Assembly (NCBI RefSeq): GCF_006715175.1
Contig: NZ_VFMQ01000001.1
Span: 2,418,001 to 2,482,000, forward strand
DNA: 64,000 nucleotides
Source: Curtobacterium citreum
Lineage (GTDB): Bacteria; Actinomycetota; Actinomycetes; Actinomycetales; Microbacteriaceae
Direction of reading: 5' to 3'
The notes under the pieces were generated by a model. The model was not told the origin of the DNA. It did not search any database and saw only the letters and a program-made list of their open reading frames with translations. Both the position numbers and the translations under genes were made by a program. Below are positions 9,601 through 64,000 of this stretch, one piece after another (positions within the stretch are counted from its first letter, which is position 1; each line of letters opens with the position of its first letter).

Positions 9601-10470
9601 CTAGCCCACCAGGTTCTGCACGAAGACGTGGGGGGTGAAGCCGGTCAGGTCGTTGATGCCCTCGCCCTGACCGATGAGCTTGATCGGGATCCCGGTCTTC
9701 TCCTGCACGCTGAGCACGAACCCGGCCTTCGCGGAGCCGTCGAGCTTCGTGATGACGAGCCCGGTGACCCCGGCGCCCTCGATGAACGCCTGCGCCTGGG
9801 CCAGGCCGTTCTGCCCGGTCGTGGCGTCGAGGACGAGCAGCACCTCGGCGATCTCGGTCTGCTTCTCGACCACGCGCTTGATCTTCGAGAGCTCGTCCAT
9901 CAGCCCGGCCTTGGTGTGCAGTCGGCCGGCGGTGTCGATGACGACGATCTCGGTGCCGTCGTGGATGGCCTTCTCGACCGTCTGGTACGCGACCGAAGCC
10001 GGGTCCTGACCGGGCTGCGCCGGGCGCACGACGTCCACGCCGGCGCGCTGGGCCCACGTGGCGACCTGCTCGACGGCGGCCGCGCGGAACGTGTCCGCCG
10101 CGCCGACGAGCACGGTGCGGTCGTACGTCTTGAGGAACTTCGCGAACTTGCCGATGGTCGTCGTCTTGCCGACGCCGTTCACGCCGACGACCAGCACGAC
10201 GGCTGGACGGGCGCTGAGCTTGAGCGTCGTGTCGAGCTTCGACAGGCGCTCCTCGAGCACCTCGCGGAGCATGCGCTGCAGGTCCGCCGGGTCGGTCGTG
10301 CCGTACCGGTCGACGCGCGCGTGCAGGTCCTCGATGACCTCGTCCGCGATGTCGGGGCCGAAATCCGCACCGATCAACGCGGTCTCGAGGTCGTCCCACG
10401 TGGTCTCGTCGATGGTCTTCCGCTGGAACAGGCCGCGGAGACGGGAGGACAGGGACCAGGAACTCGCCAT
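9601..10470 (-). CDS. ftsY: Signal recognition particle receptor FtsY
   Basis: Membrane-associated SRP receptor GTPase that receives ribosome-SRP complexes at the translocon. The 289 residues comprise only the NG domain; the acidic A domain of E. coli FtsY is missing, as is usual in actinobacteria. Motifs are GVNGVGKTTT (P-loop, 96-105), ADTFRAAAVEQ, DTAGRLHTK, TKLDGSAKAG and GQGEGINDL near the end. ATG at 10470. Upstream lies the divergent riboswitch-TerC unit. Confidence 0.97.
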   Translation of the reverse strand: MASSWSLSSRLRGLFQRKTIDETTWDDLETALIGADFGPDIADEVIEDLHARVDRYGTTDPADLQRMLREVLEERLSKLDTTLKLSARPAVVLVVGVNGVGKTTTIGKFAKFLKTYDRTVLVGAADTFRAAAVEQVATWAQRAGVDVVRPAQPGQDPASVAYQTVEKAIHDGTEIVVIDTAGRLHTKAGLMDELSKIKRVVEKQTEIAEVLLVLDATTGQNGLAQAQAFIEGAGVTGLVITKLDGSAKAGFVLSVQEKTGIPIKLIGQGEGINDLTGFTPHVFVQNLVG

Positions 10471-10521
10471 GTTCCCAGCTTAGAGCGCGTCGAGTGCGGG
10501 CTGTGCCGGATAGGCTCAGGT

Positions 10522-10632
10522 CCTGAAGGGGAGTACTCCCTCGCGGCGCACCCGTCAGTACGGTCTGGGACGATCCAGGCCCGGGACGCCGGTCGTGACG
10601 ACACGGTCGACACGGTGGAGGAGACCTTCAGG
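10522..10632 (+). promoter_or_regulatory. yybP-ykoY manganese riboswitch upstream of TerC gene
   Basis: The 5' strand CCTGAAGG (10522-10529) continues into GGAGTA, the diagnostic first conserved block of the yybP-ykoY class (GGGGAGTA). The 3' block GGAGACCTTC carries the second, and its CCTTCAGG (10625-10632) closes helix P1 with perfect complementarity. This class senses Mn2+ and typically controls exporters of the TerC/Alx, MntP and P-type ATPase families, and a TerC gene follows. An identical second CCTGAAGG at 10666-10673 overlaps the ribosome binding site. The P1 3' strand could pair with either copy, which predicts translational control. Confidence 0.9.
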
Positions 10633-10679
10633 CATCGGCGTACCCGCACGGCGGGACGCCCCGAACCTGAAGGACATCC

Positions 10680-11708
10680 ATGGACGTTCCTCTCTACGTC
10701 TGGCTCATCACCATCGCGGGCATCCTCGCGCTGCTGGTGTTCGACTTCTACTCGCACGTGCGCACGCCGCACGTGCCGCACATCAAGGAATCCGCGTTCT
10801 GGTCGGCGTTCTACGTCGGGCTCGCGATCCTGTTCGGTGTCGGCATCCTCGTCTTCGGCGGCGGACAGGCCGGCGGCGAGTACTTCGCCGGGTGGTTGAC
10901 CGAGAAGGCGCTGTCGGTCGACAACCTGTTCGTCTTCCTCATCATCATGACGAGCTTCGCGGTGCCGAAGGAGTTCCAGCAGAAGGTCCTGCTGGTCGGT
11001 GTCGCGATCGCCCTCGTCGCGCGCGGTGTGTTCATCGCCCTGGGCGTCACGATCATCGAGAACTTCTCGTGGGTGTTCTACCTGTTCGGCGCGCTGCTGT
11101 TCTGGCTCGCGTGGTCGCAGGCCCGCAGCAGTGGTGAGCACGACGCGTCCGAGGGCGACTCCCGCCTCATCCGGATCCTCCGCCGCATCATCCCGACTTC
11201 GAAGGACTACGACGGCGACAAGCTGACCACCCGGGTCGACGGCAAGCGGCTGTTCACCCCGATGCTGCTCGTCATGGTCGCCATCGGTCTGACCGACGTG
11301 CTGTTCGCCCTCGACTCGATCCCGGCGATCTTCGGTCTGACGCAGGACGCGTTCATCGTGTTCACCGCGAACGCGTTCTCGCTCCTCGGTCTCCGCCAGC
11401 TCTACTTCCTCATCGCGGGGCTGCTCGAGCGGCTCATCTACCTCGGCCAGGGTCTCGCCGTCATCCTCGCGTTCATCGGCGTGAAGCTCGTCTTCCACGC
11501 GATGCACGTCAACGAGGTGCCGTTCATCAACGGTGGGCAGCCGATCCTCTGGGCGCCGGAGATCCCGATCTGGTTCTCGTTGGGCTTCATCGCGCTGACG
11601 ATCGCCGTCGCGACGGTCGCCTCGCTGGTCGTCTCGAAGAAGCGCCAGGAGCGCGGGCTCACCCCGACCGGCCAGCCGAAGACCGCGGTCGAGGCCGACG
11701 CGAAGTAG
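10680..11708 (+). CDS. TerC-family membrane protein (Alx-like, probable Mn2+ exporter)
   Basis: A 342-residue polytopic membrane protein with about eight hydrophobic segments. The TerC signature is plain: GGGQAGGEYFAGWLTEKALSVDNLFVF, with acidic residues inside membrane segments, and later GLTDVLFALDSIPAIFGLTQ. The cytoplasmic loop between these halves is charged. TerC/Alx proteins export manganese or act in metal homeostasis and metallation of secreted proteins. The upstream yybP-ykoY riboswitch strongly supports a manganese role. The start ATG has AAGGAC 4 nt upstream, which lies within the riboswitch alternative helix. A monocistronic unit ending at a hairpin. Confidence 0.93.
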   Translation: MDVPLYVWLITIAGILALLVFDFYSHVRTPHVPHIKESAFWSAFYVGLAILFGVGILVFGGGQAGGEYFAGWLTEKALSVDNLFVFLIIMTSFAVPKEFQQKVLLVGVAIALVARGVFIALGVTIIENFSWVFYLFGALLFWLAWSQARSSGEHDASEGDSRLIRILRRIIPTSKDYDGDKLTTRVDGKRLFTPMLLVMVAIGLTDVLFALDSIPAIFGLTQDAFIVFTANAFSLLGLRQLYFLIAGLLERLIYLGQGLAVILAFIGVKLVFHAMHVNEVPFINGGQPILWAPEIPIWFSLGFIALTIAVATVASLVVSKKRQERGLTPTGQPKTAVEADAK

Positions 11709-11863: not shown

Positions 11864-14800
11864 CTACGCGACCGCGTCCGCGGGCTCCGGCTCGCGGCGC
11901 TGCACGCGCTGCCCGACCACGGCCGAGACCCCGTCCTGCCGCATCGACACCCCGTACAGCGCGTCCGCGATCTCCATCGTGCGCTTCTGGTGCGTGATGA
12001 CGATGAGCTGCGAGGACTCGCGGAGCCGCTCGAACACCGTGAGCAGACGCCCGAGGTTCGCGTCGTCGAGCGCCGCCTCGACCTCGTCCATGATGTAGAA
12101 CGGCGACGGCCGCGCGGTGAAGATCGCCACGAGGAGCGCCACGGCCGCGAGGGACCGCTCCCCGCCGGACAGCAGCGTCAGGCGGTCGATCTTCTTGCCG
12201 GCGGGCTTCACCTGCACGTCGATGCCGGTGGCGAGCAGGTCGTCGGGGTTCGTCAGCGTGATCGACCCGGAGCCGCCCGGGAACAGGATCGGGAAGATCA
12301 CGTCGAACGCCTCGCGGGTGTCGTGGAACGCCGCCTCGAAGATGGTCTGCATCTTCGTGTCGAGCTCCTCGATGATCGTGAGGAGGTCCGTCCGGGTCTT
12401 CTGCAGGTCCTCGAGCTGCTCCGCGAGGAACGCGTGCCGCTGCTCGAGCGCCTGGAATTCTTCGAGGGCGAGCGGGTTCACCTTGCCGAGCCGCCCGAGG
12501 TCGCGCTCGGCCGCCGCGAGTCGTGCCTCTTGTTCGGCGCGGACGTAGGGCACGGTCTCGACCGAGGCGGGGTCGACCTCGTCGGTGGCGTCGAACTCGG
12601 GCAGCGCCGCACCGCCGGGCAGCGTGGACCCGGCGTCGACGAGCTCGACCACGTCGTCGGCATCCAGGTCCTCGGCCCCTGCGTCGACCGTGTCGACGCC
12701 CGCGGCGTCGGCGTCGGTGTCGGCGTCCCGCTCCGCCGCCGCGCGCGCCCGCTCCGCCTCGCGGTGCCGCCGCGCCAGGACCCGCGGGTCGACCAGGACG
12801 TCCACCGGCACCGGCACGTGCGGCCCGTACTCCGTGACGAGCACCCCCTCGGGCAGCCCGAGCTCGCTCTGCGCCCGGTCGAGCAGCCCCGACACGTGCA
12901 GCTTCTTCTCGTAGATCTCCATCTCGAGGGAGTGCACCCCGTCGGTGATGGTCTGCAGACGGTCCCGGAGCTCGCGCTCCTCGTTCCGGACGACCTGGAG
13001 CTCGGTGTTGCGCTTCGTCCGCTCGGCCTCCTCGGTGGCCAGACGCACGCGGGCCTCGGCGAGCGACCGGTCCACGGCGCCGAGCAGCCCCGGCAGGTCC
13101 GCGAGCACGCTCTCGGCCACCGCGATCTGCCCCCGCCGCACGACGGCGAGTCGGGCTGCTTCCTCGGCAGCCGCGCGCTCCGCCTCGAGCTGCCGCTGGA
13201 GCCCCGCGGCCCGGTTCCGCTCGGACCGCGCGCGTTCGCGCACCGTCTCGACCTGGATGCGGTGCTCGATCTCGGCGGCCCTGGCCGCCTCGACGGCCTC
13301 CTGCAGCGCTGGACGCCCGGACGCGTCGACGACCGGCCGGGGCTGCTCGGCGAACGCGTGCTGGTCCTGTTCGGCGGCCGCGAGCGCGGCCTCGGCCGCC
13401 TCGCCGGCCCCGTCGGTCTCGGCGAGGGCGGCACGCAGCCGCTCGACCTCGGCCACGGCGTTCTCGGCCTTCGCGCGCGTCGACGCACTCGACCGGTCGT
13501 AGTCGGCCTTCGCCGCGGTGTGCGCGCGGAGTACGCGGTCGGCCTCGTCGGTCCGGCGGCGCGCGTCCTCGACGGCGTTCCGTGCTGCCTGGAGGCCCGT
13601 GGCCGCGTCCTCGGCGTCCGTCGCGACCGCGGCGCGGCGGGCCCGGGCGGCGTCGCGTTCCGCGACGAGCTCGATGCGGGAGACGGCGCGCTCCCCGCCG
13701 CCGGTGACGCGGACCGCGCGGACCAGGTCACCCGACCCCGTGACCACCGTGGCGTGCGGGGCGGCGGCGAGCACCGCCTCCAGGTCGACGGTGTCGTCCA
13801 CCGCGACCAGCGTGGTCCGGAGGAGCGCGGTCAGGGCGGGCGGGCCCTGGACGACGTCCAGGGCGGGTCGGACGCCGGCCGGCAGCGTCGTCGGCAGCCC
13901 GGGGCCGTCGTCGACGGCGTCGGCGACCACCACGTCGACGCGCCCGAGGTCCTCTGCGCGTGCGTGCGCGACGGTGTCGAGCGCGGCGGCGCGGTCCGCG
14001 GTGAGCACGGCGTCGGCGAGCCCGTCGAGGGCCGCGGCGACCGGCGCCTCGAAGCCGGCGGTGACGGTGAGCGCGTCGGCCAGGCGACCGAGCACGCCGT
14101 CCCGTGCCGCGTCGATGACCGCCTGGGAGCCGTCGCGCACGTCGATGGACATGCCGAGCGCGGCGACGCGCGCGTCGAGGGCGTCCCGTTCGCGCTCCAG
14201 GGCGTGCAGCCGGTCGCGCTGCGCGTCCCGCTCGGTCTGGGCCGCCTCGAGGTCGTGCCGGGCGGTCTCGTGCGCGGTCGTCAGCGCGGACTCGTCGACG
14301 CCCTCAGCGGGGTCGACGCCGACCTCGGCCAGCGCCGCGGCCGCGCGCTCCGCACGGTCCTCGGCCTCGGCGAGGGCGCGCGCCCGTCGCTCCCGGTCGG
14401 CGACGGCCGATCCGCGGCGCGACCGCGCGACGTCGACGGCACCGGCGAGCCGCTGGGCCTCGAGGTCGTGCTGCGCGACGAGGGCGGCCTGCGCGGCGAT
14501 CTGCTCGTCGAGGGCGTCGAGCCGGGCGCGGGCCTCGGCGACCGCACGGGCGGTGTCGGCGGTGCCCGCGGTCATCGCGGCGGCACGGGCCTCGAGCCGC
14601 TCGGCCTCGTCGCGGACGCCCTGCACCCGCTCCGGGGTGATCGTCGGGCCCTGCTGCGGCGCGTCGGCCTGCTGCGCGAGGAACATCAGCCGCTGGTTCG
14701 CCAGGCTGGACAGGCCGCGCAGCCGCTCCTGGACGCTCTCCAGCCGGTGCACGACCGTCCGGGCGCGGTCGACGTCGTCGCCGACAATGCTCTGCTCGAC

Positions 14801-15613
14801 CTGCTGCTGCCGGGCCCTGGTCTGCTCCAGGCGCTCCTGCAGCACGATGCGCTCGGACTTCCGGCCGGCCTCGACCTCCTGGTGGTCGTGCAGCTCGCGG
14901 CGGAGCCGGACCACGTCGTCGGCGAGGATGCGGGCCTTGGCGTCCCGGGCCACCGCGGCGACGGACTGCGCGCGCCGGGCGACCTCGGCCTGGCGCCCGA
15001 GGGGCTTCAGCTGCCGACGGATCTCGCCGGCGAGGTCGGACAGGCGCGTCAGGTTCGTCTGCATCGCGTCGAGCTTGCGGAGGGTCTTCTCCTTGCGGCG
15101 GCGGTGCTTGAGGATCCCGGCGGCCTCCTCGATGAAGCCGCGGCGGTCCTCCGGGGTGGCGTGCAGGACCTTGTCCAGCTGGCCCTGCCCGACGATGACG
15201 TGCATCTCGCGGCCGAGTCCGGTGTCGCTCAGGAGCTCCTGGACGTCGAGCAGGCGGCAGTTCTCGCCGTTGATCGCGTACTCGCTGCCGCCGTTCCGGA
15301 AGAGCGTGCGCGAGATCGTCACCTCGGAGTAGTCGATCGGCAGCAGACCGTCGGTGTTGTCGATCGTCAGGAGCACCTGCGCCCGGCCGAGCGGGCCGCG
15401 GGTCGAGGTCCCGGCGAAGATGACGTCCTCCATCTTGCCGCCGCGCAGGGTCTTCGCGCCCTGCTCCCCCATCACCCACGCGAGGGCGTCGACGACGTTC
15501 GACTTGCCCGATCCGTTCGGTCCGACGATGCAGGTCACCCCGGGCTCGAACGCGAACGTCGTCGGCTGCGCGAAGGACTTGAACCCCTTGATGGTCAGGC
15601 TCTTCAAGTACAT
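11864..15613 (-). CDS. smc: Chromosome segregation ATPase SMC
   Basis: ATPase of the SMC-ScpAB condensin, which folds and segregates the chromosome. The 1249 residues show the N-terminal Walker A GPNGSGKSN (31-39), a first coiled coil, a hinge near the middle (GVLGRLADALTVTAGFEAPVAAAL), a second coiled coil, and the C-terminal signature LSGGERSLAAVALL with Walker B YIMDEVEAALDD. An Asp/Ala-rich linker (ERDADTDADAAGVDTV and on) interrupts the second coil before the C-terminal head, longer than in model SMCs. It starts ATG at 15613 (MYLKSLTIKGFKSFA). The mutM gene lies 78 nt upstream on the same strand. Confidence 0.97.
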   Translation of the reverse strand: MYLKSLTIKGFKSFAQPTTFAFEPGVTCIVGPNGSGKSNVVDALAWVMGEQGAKTLRGGKMEDVIFAGTSTRGPLGRAQVLLTIDNTDGLLPIDYSEVTISRTLFRNGGSEYAINGENCRLLDVQELLSDTGLGREMHVIVGQGQLDKVLHATPEDRRGFIEEAAGILKHRRRKEKTLRKLDAMQTNLTRLSDLAGEIRRQLKPLGRQAEVARRAQSVAAVARDAKARILADDVVRLRRELHDHQEVEAGRKSERIVLQERLEQTRARQQQVEQSIVGDDVDRARTVVHRLESVQERLRGLSSLANQRLMFLAQQADAPQQGPTITPERVQGVRDEAERLEARAAAMTAGTADTARAVAEARARLDALDEQIAAQAALVAQHDLEAQRLAGAVDVARSRRGSAVADRERRARALAEAEDRAERAAAALAEVGVDPAEGVDESALTTAHETARHDLEAAQTERDAQRDRLHALERERDALDARVAALGMSIDVRDGSQAVIDAARDGVLGRLADALTVTAGFEAPVAAALDGLADAVLTADRAAALDTVAHARAEDLGRVDVVVADAVDDGPGLPTTLPAGVRPALDVVQGPPALTALLRTTLVAVDDTVDLEAVLAAAPHATVVTGSGDLVRAVRVTGGGERAVSRIELVAERDAARARRAAVATDAEDAATGLQAARNAVEDARRRTDEADRVLRAHTAAKADYDRSSASTRAKAENAVAEVERLRAALAETDGAGEAAEAALAAAEQDQHAFAEQPRPVVDASGRPALQEAVEAARAAEIEHRIQVETVRERARSERNRAAGLQRQLEAERAAAEEAARLAVVRRGQIAVAESVLADLPGLLGAVDRSLAEARVRLATEEAERTKRNTELQVVRNEERELRDRLQTITDGVHSLEMEIYEKKLHVSGLLDRAQSELGLPEGVLVTEYGPHVPVPVDVLVDPRVLARRHREAERARAAAERDADTDADAAGVDTVDAGAEDLDADDVVELVDAGSTLPGGAALPEFDATDEVDPASVETVPYVRAEQEARLAAAERDLGRLGKVNPLALEEFQALEQRHAFLAEQLEDLQKTRTDLLTIIEELDTKMQTIFEAAFHDTREAFDVIFPILFPGGSGSITLTNPDDLLATGIDVQVKPAGKKIDRLTLLSGGERSLAAVALLVAIFTARPSPFYIMDEVEAALDDANLGRLLTVFERLRESSQLIVITHQKRTMEIADALYGVSMRQDGVSAVVGQRVQRREPEPADAVA

Positions 15614-42202: not shown

Positions 42203-42275
42203 TGACCCCAGCGGGATTCGAACCCGCGTTACCGCCGTGAGAGGGCGACGTACTAGGCCGCTGTACGATGGGGCC
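42203..42275 (-). tRNA. tRNA-Glu (CTC), copy without encoded CCA
   Basis: A complete cloverleaf on the minus strand: acceptor GGCCCCA with TGGGGTC, D-arm GTAC/GTAC, anticodon loop CTCTCAC with anticodon CTC, T-arm GCGGG-TTCGAAT-CCCGC, discriminator A. The 3' flank is CACAC, so CCA must be added after transcription. The body is identical to the copy at 42343. Confidence 0.95.
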
Positions 42276-42342: not shown

Positions 42343-42418
42343 TGGTGACCCCAGCGGGATTCGAACCCGCGTTACCGCCGTGAGAGGGCGACGTACTAGG
42401 CCGCTGTACGATGGGGCC
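42343..42418 (-). tRNA. tRNA-Glu (CTC), copy with encoded CCA
   Basis: Same cloverleaf and anticodon CTC as the downstream copy, but here discriminator A is followed by an encoded CCA. The two genes are 67 bp apart and likely share the promoter at 42435-42464. Confidence 0.95.
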
Positions 42419-62456: not shown

Positions 62457-62575
62457 GTCCGGCGGCGTCCTACTCTCCCACAAGGTCCCCCTTGCAGTAC
62501 CATCGGCGCTGAGAGGCTTAGCTTCCGGGTTCGGAATGTGACCGGGCGTTTCCCTCTCGCTATGACCACCGGAAC
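62457..62575 (-). rRNA. rrf: 5S ribosomal RNA
   Basis: Reads on the minus strand from GTTCCGGTGGTCATAGCGAG to GTAGGACGCCGCCGGAC. CCGAACCCGGAAGCTAAG and the terminal helix are characteristic of actinobacterial 5S. Ends are accurate to a few bases. Part of the rRNA operon that continues beyond the right edge. Confidence 0.95.
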
Positions 62576-62679
62576 ACCTTCGACTTGACCCATCGGATCA
62601 AGAAAGCTGTCCCGCGCATGCGCGGTGTTCAGTTTCATGTTCCCGATCGTCTGTCGGGAACCACAAAGTGGACGCGAGC

Positions 62680-62701
62680 CCCACACCACGAATGGTGTGG
62701 G
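62680..62701 (-). other. Processing-type hairpin in 23S-5S spacer
   Basis: 9-bp stem CCCACACCA / TGGTGTGGG with loop CGAA lies between the 5S and 23S genes. This spacer (62576-62712) otherwise holds no gene; stems of this kind direct RNase processing of the transcript. Confidence 0.5.
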
Positions 62702-62712
62702 TAAAAAGTGTG

Positions 62713-64000
<1,288 letters not shown>

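Follow-up and report, generated by a model that had tools for sequence, protein, structure and literature searches.

The leader of a TerC-family gene in the window (the whole 64 kb stretch of DNA that was analysed) very likely carries a manganese switch acting on translation, made up of an alx-type aptamer at 10522–10632 and a translational expression platform at 10625–10680, in which Mn2+ would free the ribosome site (SD) of the gene. One aptamer strand, CCUUCAGG at 10625–10632, would have two alternative partners, 10522–10529 or 10666–10673. Mn2+ bound across L1 and L3 would hold P1 (10522–10529/10625–10632) shut and leave the SD at 10669–10674 for the ribosome; without Mn2+, P1 would be unstabilised, 10625–10632 would pair with 10666–10673, and the exporter would not be made because its SD is covered. 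The closing helix and the ribosome site would in this way compete for one strand, with no separate anti-RBS element. We infer the direction of the Mn2+ response and the ON state, and the exporter is probably turned on by the metal it would export. The original prediction for this DNA was right on the anatomy of the leader and very probably right on its mechanism. We also lean towards a broader reading, by which across the Actinomycetota the 3′ strand of P1 (mostly CUUUC, CCUUC or CCUCC) would serve as a built-in anti-SD, an mRNA start at P1 would limit the length of P1 and favour the OFF state, and the switches would form a large group mostly invisible to the Rfam model RF00080.

Structure and class of the aptamer

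All features of the leader lie on the forward strand. The aptamer opens with the 5′ strand of P1 (P1.1), CCUGAAGG at 10522–10529, located by folding and by an 8-mer search, followed by the 5′ side of L1, GGAGUA (10530–10535), invariant in 43 aligned relatives, and by the 5′ strand of P1.2, CUCC (10536–10539), which pairs with the 3′ strand GGAG at 10617–10620 according to fold and covariation. A P3-like arm (10544–10591), seen in the fold and backed by covariation, holds the internal loop L3, UCAGUAC at 10555–10561, and the last arm is a P4-like hairpin (10593–10615), placed by fold and alignment and variable among relatives. The 3′ side of L1, GAGA (10621–10624), closes the core, and in the 43 sequences AGAC is invariant and the G before it nearly so. 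As a whole, L1 reads GGGGAGUA / GAGACC and lies between P1.1 and P1.2, at 10528–10535 and 10621–10626, with neither GGGAGUA nor AGAC varying among the 43 sequences aligned, while L3 reads GUCAGUACG and contains A10557, with CGUCA invariant in 43/43. In excerpts of PMC6754395, the invariant Mn2+-contacting adenosine is A41 in L. lactis and A48 in X. oryzae, in an ACA or UCA context; A10557, the A of GUCA and invariant in 43/43, is probably its counterpart, to judge from the motif.

The alignment comprises 43 aptamers from family leaders carrying the core, the window included, and 18 of the 24 predicted pairs show two-sided changes in at least one of them. Covariation backs helices P1.1 and P1.2 as well as the arm that bears L3; the outer two pairs of P1.2 covary as UA/CG/GC/AU and CG/UA, the first being UA in 35 sequences, CG in five, GC in two and AU in one. 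Eighty leaders upstream of TIGR03718 genes were sampled from genomes of the same bacterial family, among the higher-scoring matches listed; a regular expression found the core in 54 of them and not in the other 26. A three-part pattern combining both sides of L1 with L3 matched in 18/199 genomes of the family, and the reversed control pattern gave no match in the same 199 genomes.

A covariance model, R1, was built from the 43 aptamers and contains no E. coli sequence. It scores 79.3 bits on the window, one of its own 43 sequences, and finds the E. coli alx leader, a validated member, at 47.9 bits (E 2.8e-9), while E. coli mntP was not matched at E ≤ 1. E. coli alx has been described as a Mn2+ sensor in excerpts of PMC9603457. 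The window fold has three arms and lacks the P2 arm of the four-way junction; P2 is not class-defining, because alx also aligns end to end without it. An extra P2-like hairpin was seen by eye in two relatives (L051 and L070). Because R1 finds alx, the adenosine is invariant and the three-arm layout aligns as alx does, the stretch 10522–10632 is, on its sequence, an alx-type yybP-ykoY (Mn2+) riboswitch aptamer, and Mn2+ would be its ligand by class membership. The yybP-ykoY identity proposed at the outset is thus upheld by covariation and phylum-wide conservation, with the subtype now added. On its own, the aptamer is not unusually stable (z −1.3, with 16/200 shuffles as stable), and the case therefore rests on comparison. 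A Guanidine-II (RF01068) match at 10562–10606, with 17 bits, E 0.37 and a cut-off of 32, was rejected as a chance match explained by the P3 arm. The element is a new one of an already known riboswitch class, and actinobacterial yybP-ykoY leaders as such have been reported before.

Coverage by RF00080 and spread of alx-type aptamers

RF00080 found nothing above its cut-off in the window. At E ≤ 10 it was also silent over 10401–10800, as it was at E ≤ 1 in 15 core-bearing loci (the window and 14 relatives). The covariance-model search suggested with the original prediction therefore yields, taken literally, no match, yet this silence is uninformative and says little about the window because RF00080 misses E. 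coli alx too: in a control scan, alx was missed at E ≤ 10 and mntP scored 41.6, under the cut-off of 45. At that cut-off, the model also misses all 18 named full-core loci tried, nine of them from Firmicutes. RF00080 is insensitive to the alx-type subtype, and a new riboswitch class, considered on account of the missing match, was discarded since RF00080 misses alx and R1 finds it. The RF00080 (Manganese) model and the window share the core motifs of one class; the RF00080 consensus departs from the window by its longer L3, CGUCAACAUACUUG, and by lacking P1 pairs. Two types of L3 can be told apart, a long one, CGUCAACAUACU (mntP, RF00080), and a short one, CGUCANUACG (alx, Actinomycetota); RF00080 fits the long type, and the nine short-L3 Firmicutes loci tried fall below its cut-off.

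R1 matched at E ≤ 0.001 in 68 of 296 genomes drawn across the Actinomycetota, and RF00080 in the same genomes gave 10 at E ≤ 0.001 and one over its cut-off, both searches having been run with stricter filters by which weak matches are lost. No site was shared between the two models among the matches listed. The 30 loci fetched from the phylum search, which are the best-scoring R1 matches, precede a TerC homologue at the window and 21 others; the rest comprise four P-type cation ATPases, one Na_Ca_ex gene, two cuts by a contig end, and a locus (L130) whose next long frame lies some 600 nt on and looks cation-ATPase-like by eye. Within the genus of the window, R1 matches were found in 59/60 genomes, the genome without a match being 73% complete. 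Mn2+ regulation in Streptomyces and relatives may be under-annotated because RF00080 overlooks many of these switches (1/296 genomes, against 68/296 for R1).

The same genome carries a second alx-type aptamer outside the window (G000:C1:710222-710327, L001 about 1477–1582; R1 45.4 bits), which overlaps an RF00080 fragment of 15.9 bits and precedes a Na+/Ca2+-exchanger-like gene (PF01699). Its anti-P1 hairpin (CTTCGGC/GCCGAAG) does not directly include the SD. The pair of aptamer and exchanger-like gene recurs by eye in two other genomes of the genus (L310 and L311; L312 was left out). Genome G135 has two aptamers (L006 and L020), each before a different TerC-like gene and with differing P1/SD pairs, CCTTCAGCAC/GTGCTGGAGG and CCTTCACGA/TCGTGGAGG. 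Four TerC leaders, mostly from small-genome members of the family (L024, L026, L028 and L090), have no riboswitch core and share an AT-rich stretch like AGAATAATACAGGAAATAATATTC just before the gene, which perhaps represents a promoter with a protein operator replacing the riboswitch.

The switching strand and the ribosome site

In the 64 kb window, both strands considered, the 8-mer CCTGAAGG has three exact matches against 1.0 expected, a count reached anywhere in the sequence in 8/100 window shuffles; the three fall inside 152 bases, in register. The 3′ strand of P1, CCTTCAGG at 10625–10632, is complementary to CCTGAAGG at 10522–10529 and also at 10666–10673. All three 8-mers that had been placed at these coordinates are present exactly, with no further exact match in the window. 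The second CCUGAAGG copy (10666–10673), the anti-P1 partner, was correctly placed on the ribosome site of the TerC gene, where it overlaps the SD GAAGGA (10669–10674), itself 5 nt before the ATG at 10680. Folds further show a spacer hairpin (10637–10660) that would bring the switching strand and the SD together. One strand thus has two mutually exclusive pairings, one of them over the SD.

Conservation was followed in 58 genus leaders, one per genome, the 59th matched genome having given only an exchanger-type site. Of the 58, 54 carry CCTTCAGG as the switching strand, and in 42 the next 100 nt contain a perfect reverse complement of the P1 3′ strand found in that leader; the conservation in relatives that the original prediction called for is accordingly present on the SD side. 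P1 has just five contiguous pairs from the L1 side in 46/58 leaders. Among the 16 leaders without an exact complement, 12 were inspected, of which 11 pair over 7–8 contiguous positions when G.U pairs are counted, often carrying CCTGGAGG, which makes a stronger SD; the twelfth (L296) has an internal mismatch in its pairing. For the remaining four, the duplex energies lie between −12.5 and −12.7 kcal/mol. The built-in repeat of the original prediction holds in part: the complementarity between strand and SD is kept, but the identical repeat is not, as the P1 5′ strand is CCTGAAGG in 11/58 leaders. The exact 8-base repeat was dismissed as a functional feature because only these 11 genus leaders carry it. 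The conserved feature is the ability of the P1 3′ strand to pair with the SD side (the OFF hairpin) rather than an identical repeat.

In a broader set, 102 leaders with the core were collected, of which three had no gene frame and two were left out (L078 with a misassigned start and L121 with a 197-nt spacer), giving 97. Their strands are CUUUC in 31, CCUUC in 25, CCUCC in 18, CGUUC in 10, CCUUG in eight and others in five, and examples of strand and partner are CUUUCG with CGAAAGG, CCUUGG with CCAAGGA and, from Streptomyces, CCUCCGGCAG with CUGCCGGAGG. Pairing of the strand with the SD region of its own leader averages −11.2 kcal/mol, compared with −8.15 kcal/mol for permuted partners and −9.5 kcal/mol when permutation was confined to classes sharing the first five nucleotides of the strand; the observed mean was reached in 0/5000 of these restricted permutations, and likewise in 0/5000 with 66 non-redundant leaders. 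SD bases are covered by the strand partner in 58/66 leaders, with the best partner off the SD in eight (12/97 in the full set), and anti-P1 exceeds P1 in stability in 50/66.

Folding of the two states

As bare 8-mers, the strand 10625–10632 pairs with either copy at −12.1 kcal/mol. With short flanks the energies are −13.4 kcal/mol for P1 and −14.3 kcal/mol for anti-P1, the window P1 being unusually strong with eight pairs; three further pairs, bringing P1 to −15.0 kcal/mol, would form with flanks from 10516 if the transcript began at 10516 or earlier. The unconstrained fold of the whole leader adopts the SD-side pairing, which is favoured over the P1 state by 4.9 to 7.3 kcal/mol across four RNA cuts, in energies that hold no metal or tertiary term. 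The SD-side hairpin alone amounts to −31.2 kcal/mol, and 10625–10697 folds better than 200/200 shuffles (z −3.8).

Forcing P1 raises the mean unpaired probability of the SD from 0.17 to 0.25–0.59, depending on the choice of RNA ends, and that of the AUG from 0.17–0.49 to 0.59–0.95; in a shorter two-state calculation on the window, SD openness rises only from 0.17 to 0.23. A local hairpin formed with the first codons that is able to hold the SD is weak, at −4 kcal/mol. Folding with and without the P1 constraint, as recommended with the original prediction, hence bears out a ribosome site covered in the unconstrained fold, but the site is opened only in part when P1 is forced. The calculation was extended to 65 leaders (the 66 non-redundant ones minus one with a spacer over 90 nt), where mean SD openness was 0.27 for a free strand, 0.41 for a locked one and 0.36 for a shuffled one. 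The SD is more open with the strand locked in 48/65 leaders and the mean effect is modest. Folding alone is no proof of the ON state in every relative, because locking the strand brings a gain below 0.05, or a loss, in 24/65, and the modelled two states across the 65 leaders would lend weak support to a switch.

Probable start of the transcript

A probable −10 box, TAGGCT, lies at 10511–10516, recognised by the position of its TANNNT pattern. TANNNT ending 7–13 nt before GGGGAGTA occurs in 50/66 diverse leaders, compared with 1–4/66 in four control windows, and a −10 box typically lies 6–7 nt from the transcript start. The transcript thus probably begins at about 10522–10524, with an mRNA whose first bases would be the P1 strand. 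A scan for the sigma-70 consensus found no promoter at the leader. The start mapped in the C. glutamicum terC leader, 6 nt inside the Rfam match in excerpts of PMC3890552, agrees with a start at P1. If the mRNA does begin at P1, P1 may for that reason be short.

The TerC gene and its neighbourhood

The gene after the leader (10680–11708, forward strand) encodes a TerC/Alx-family membrane protein of 342 aa, as the original prediction had it, with matches to PF03741 (167.8 bits) and TIGR03718 R_switched_Alx (365.2 bits, cut-off 246.4). The protein is a likely Mn2+ exporter by analogy with its family, and it shares 89% identity with two Curtobacterium records. By its TIGR03718 assignment, the leader stands before a gene of Mn2+ homeostasis. 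On the opposite strand, 9601–10470, upstream of the leader, encodes SRP54-type GTPase domains (FtsY/Ffh-like), and 11864–15613, downstream of the TerC gene, is SMC-like. Elsewhere in the window, two adjacent tRNA genes on the minus strand (42203–42275 and 42346–42418) have equal model scores of 58.4 bits and perhaps arose by duplication, and the 3′ part of an rRNA operon (23S, 5S) occupies 62457–64000 of the minus strand and runs past the window end.

Terminator or ribosome site, and other readings

At least 118 loci of the collection carry the core pattern, and 80 named ones were used, with the phylum taken from the record title. In Firmicutes, a group of 26 that takes in two Tenericutes-like records, a T-run directly follows the anti-P1 partner in 23/26 and an ORF start without a T-run in 0/26. 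Among the Actinomycetota the T-run is found in 0/38 and an ORF start 2–13 nt past the partner in 32/38, a generous mechanical count that includes two loci with the partner inside the gene (L194 and L209) and one with weak pairing (L142). Proteobacteria are mixed (n = 10, with no T-runs and five ORF starts), Chloroflexota (n = 5) have one of each, and the single Thermus locus has an ORF start and no T-run. Because these counts differ by phylum, one competing strand seems to drive a terminator in Firmicutes and SD occlusion in Actinomycetota.

The Firmicutes T-runs, which are terminator-like and stand at the same place, together with Rho, which is tied to the control of E. coli mntP in excerpts of PMC11647493, lend some colour to the reading that the aptamer acts mainly on transcription, with the anti-P1 hairpin or a Rho-exposed untranslated leader ending the transcript. 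A scan of the window leader for intrinsic terminators found none and a terminator in the window was discarded on that ground; the complete lack of T-runs among the 38 Actinomycetota and a conserved partner that is the SD in 58/66 leaders also speak against control of this kind, which we consider unlikely, and Rho-dependent ending may be a consequence of blocked translation. The repeat could in turn be thought a coincidence, as the P1 5′ strand (GAAGG, GGAGG) is purine-rich like an SD, any such leader would show some complementarity and permuted partners still reach about −8 kcal/mol; but the pairing runs past the SD core and tracks its own leader, beyond what any class-restricted permutation reached, and, of the two copies, the one at the SD is the better conserved within the genus, which leaves chance next to no credit.

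The translational switch might also answer chiefly to a signal other than Mn2+, such as pH or another divalent ion, within the same structural class. E. coli alx responds to alkaline pH besides Mn2+, and the second aptamer of the genome stands before a Na+/Ca2+-exchanger-like gene. Against this, the L1 and L3 core is intact, including the adenosine that putatively reads Mn2+, and most downstream genes at other loci encode TerC proteins or P-type cation ATPases, both known from Mn2+ riboswitches; a different chief signal is therefore very unlikely, and an Mn2+-dependent freeing of the SD is retained as the preferred reading.

Comparison with known riboswitches

The known systems offer parallels for both halves of the proposed switch. 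In the passages of PMC6754395 on these RNAs, the X. oryzae, L. lactis and E. coli mntP riboswitches have the L1/L3 core, the invariant adenosine and the P1.1 switching helix in common with the window, and in X. oryzae Mn2+ stabilises a weak P1.1 against a competing downstream strand. The crystal structures show a docked four-way junction, in contrast to the three arms of the window, and the X. oryzae riboswitch works by transcription antitermination, unlike the translational platform proposed here (excerpts of PMC6754395). For E. coli mntP, excerpts of PMC11647493 describe an RBS that is occluded without Mn2+. Titles and abstract openings of the open-licence literature yielded no previous description of pairing on the SD side for actinobacterial Mn2+ riboswitches. 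Within the phylum, Corynebacterium glutamicum terC (cg2157) also has an actinobacterial yybP-ykoY leader before terC (PMC3890552, in excerpts), and Mn2+ riboswitches have come from RNA-seq of Corynebacterium and Streptomyces (PMC8164766, in excerpts).

In the window leader, an actinobacterium offers a clean and minimal candidate for Mn2+ control of translation, and since the switching strand, both of its partners and their conservation have been identified, the switch is directly testable. It would represent a tidy translational platform that recurs widely among Actinomycetota and that Rfam, in its current model, covers poorly, and it sets up a contrast in which one aptamer strand appears to be coupled to a terminator in Firmicutes and to the ribosome site in Actinomycetota. 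The nearest known relative is E. coli alx, annotated as the Mn2+ exporter Alx, which has the same L1 (GGGGAGUA / GAGACC), the same short L3 (CGUCANUACG), the same arm order with no separate P2, and a gene of the same family; the two differ in that the P1 3′ strand of alx faces, by eye, a nearby hairpin strand, GGCGAGGUC, and not the SD directly.
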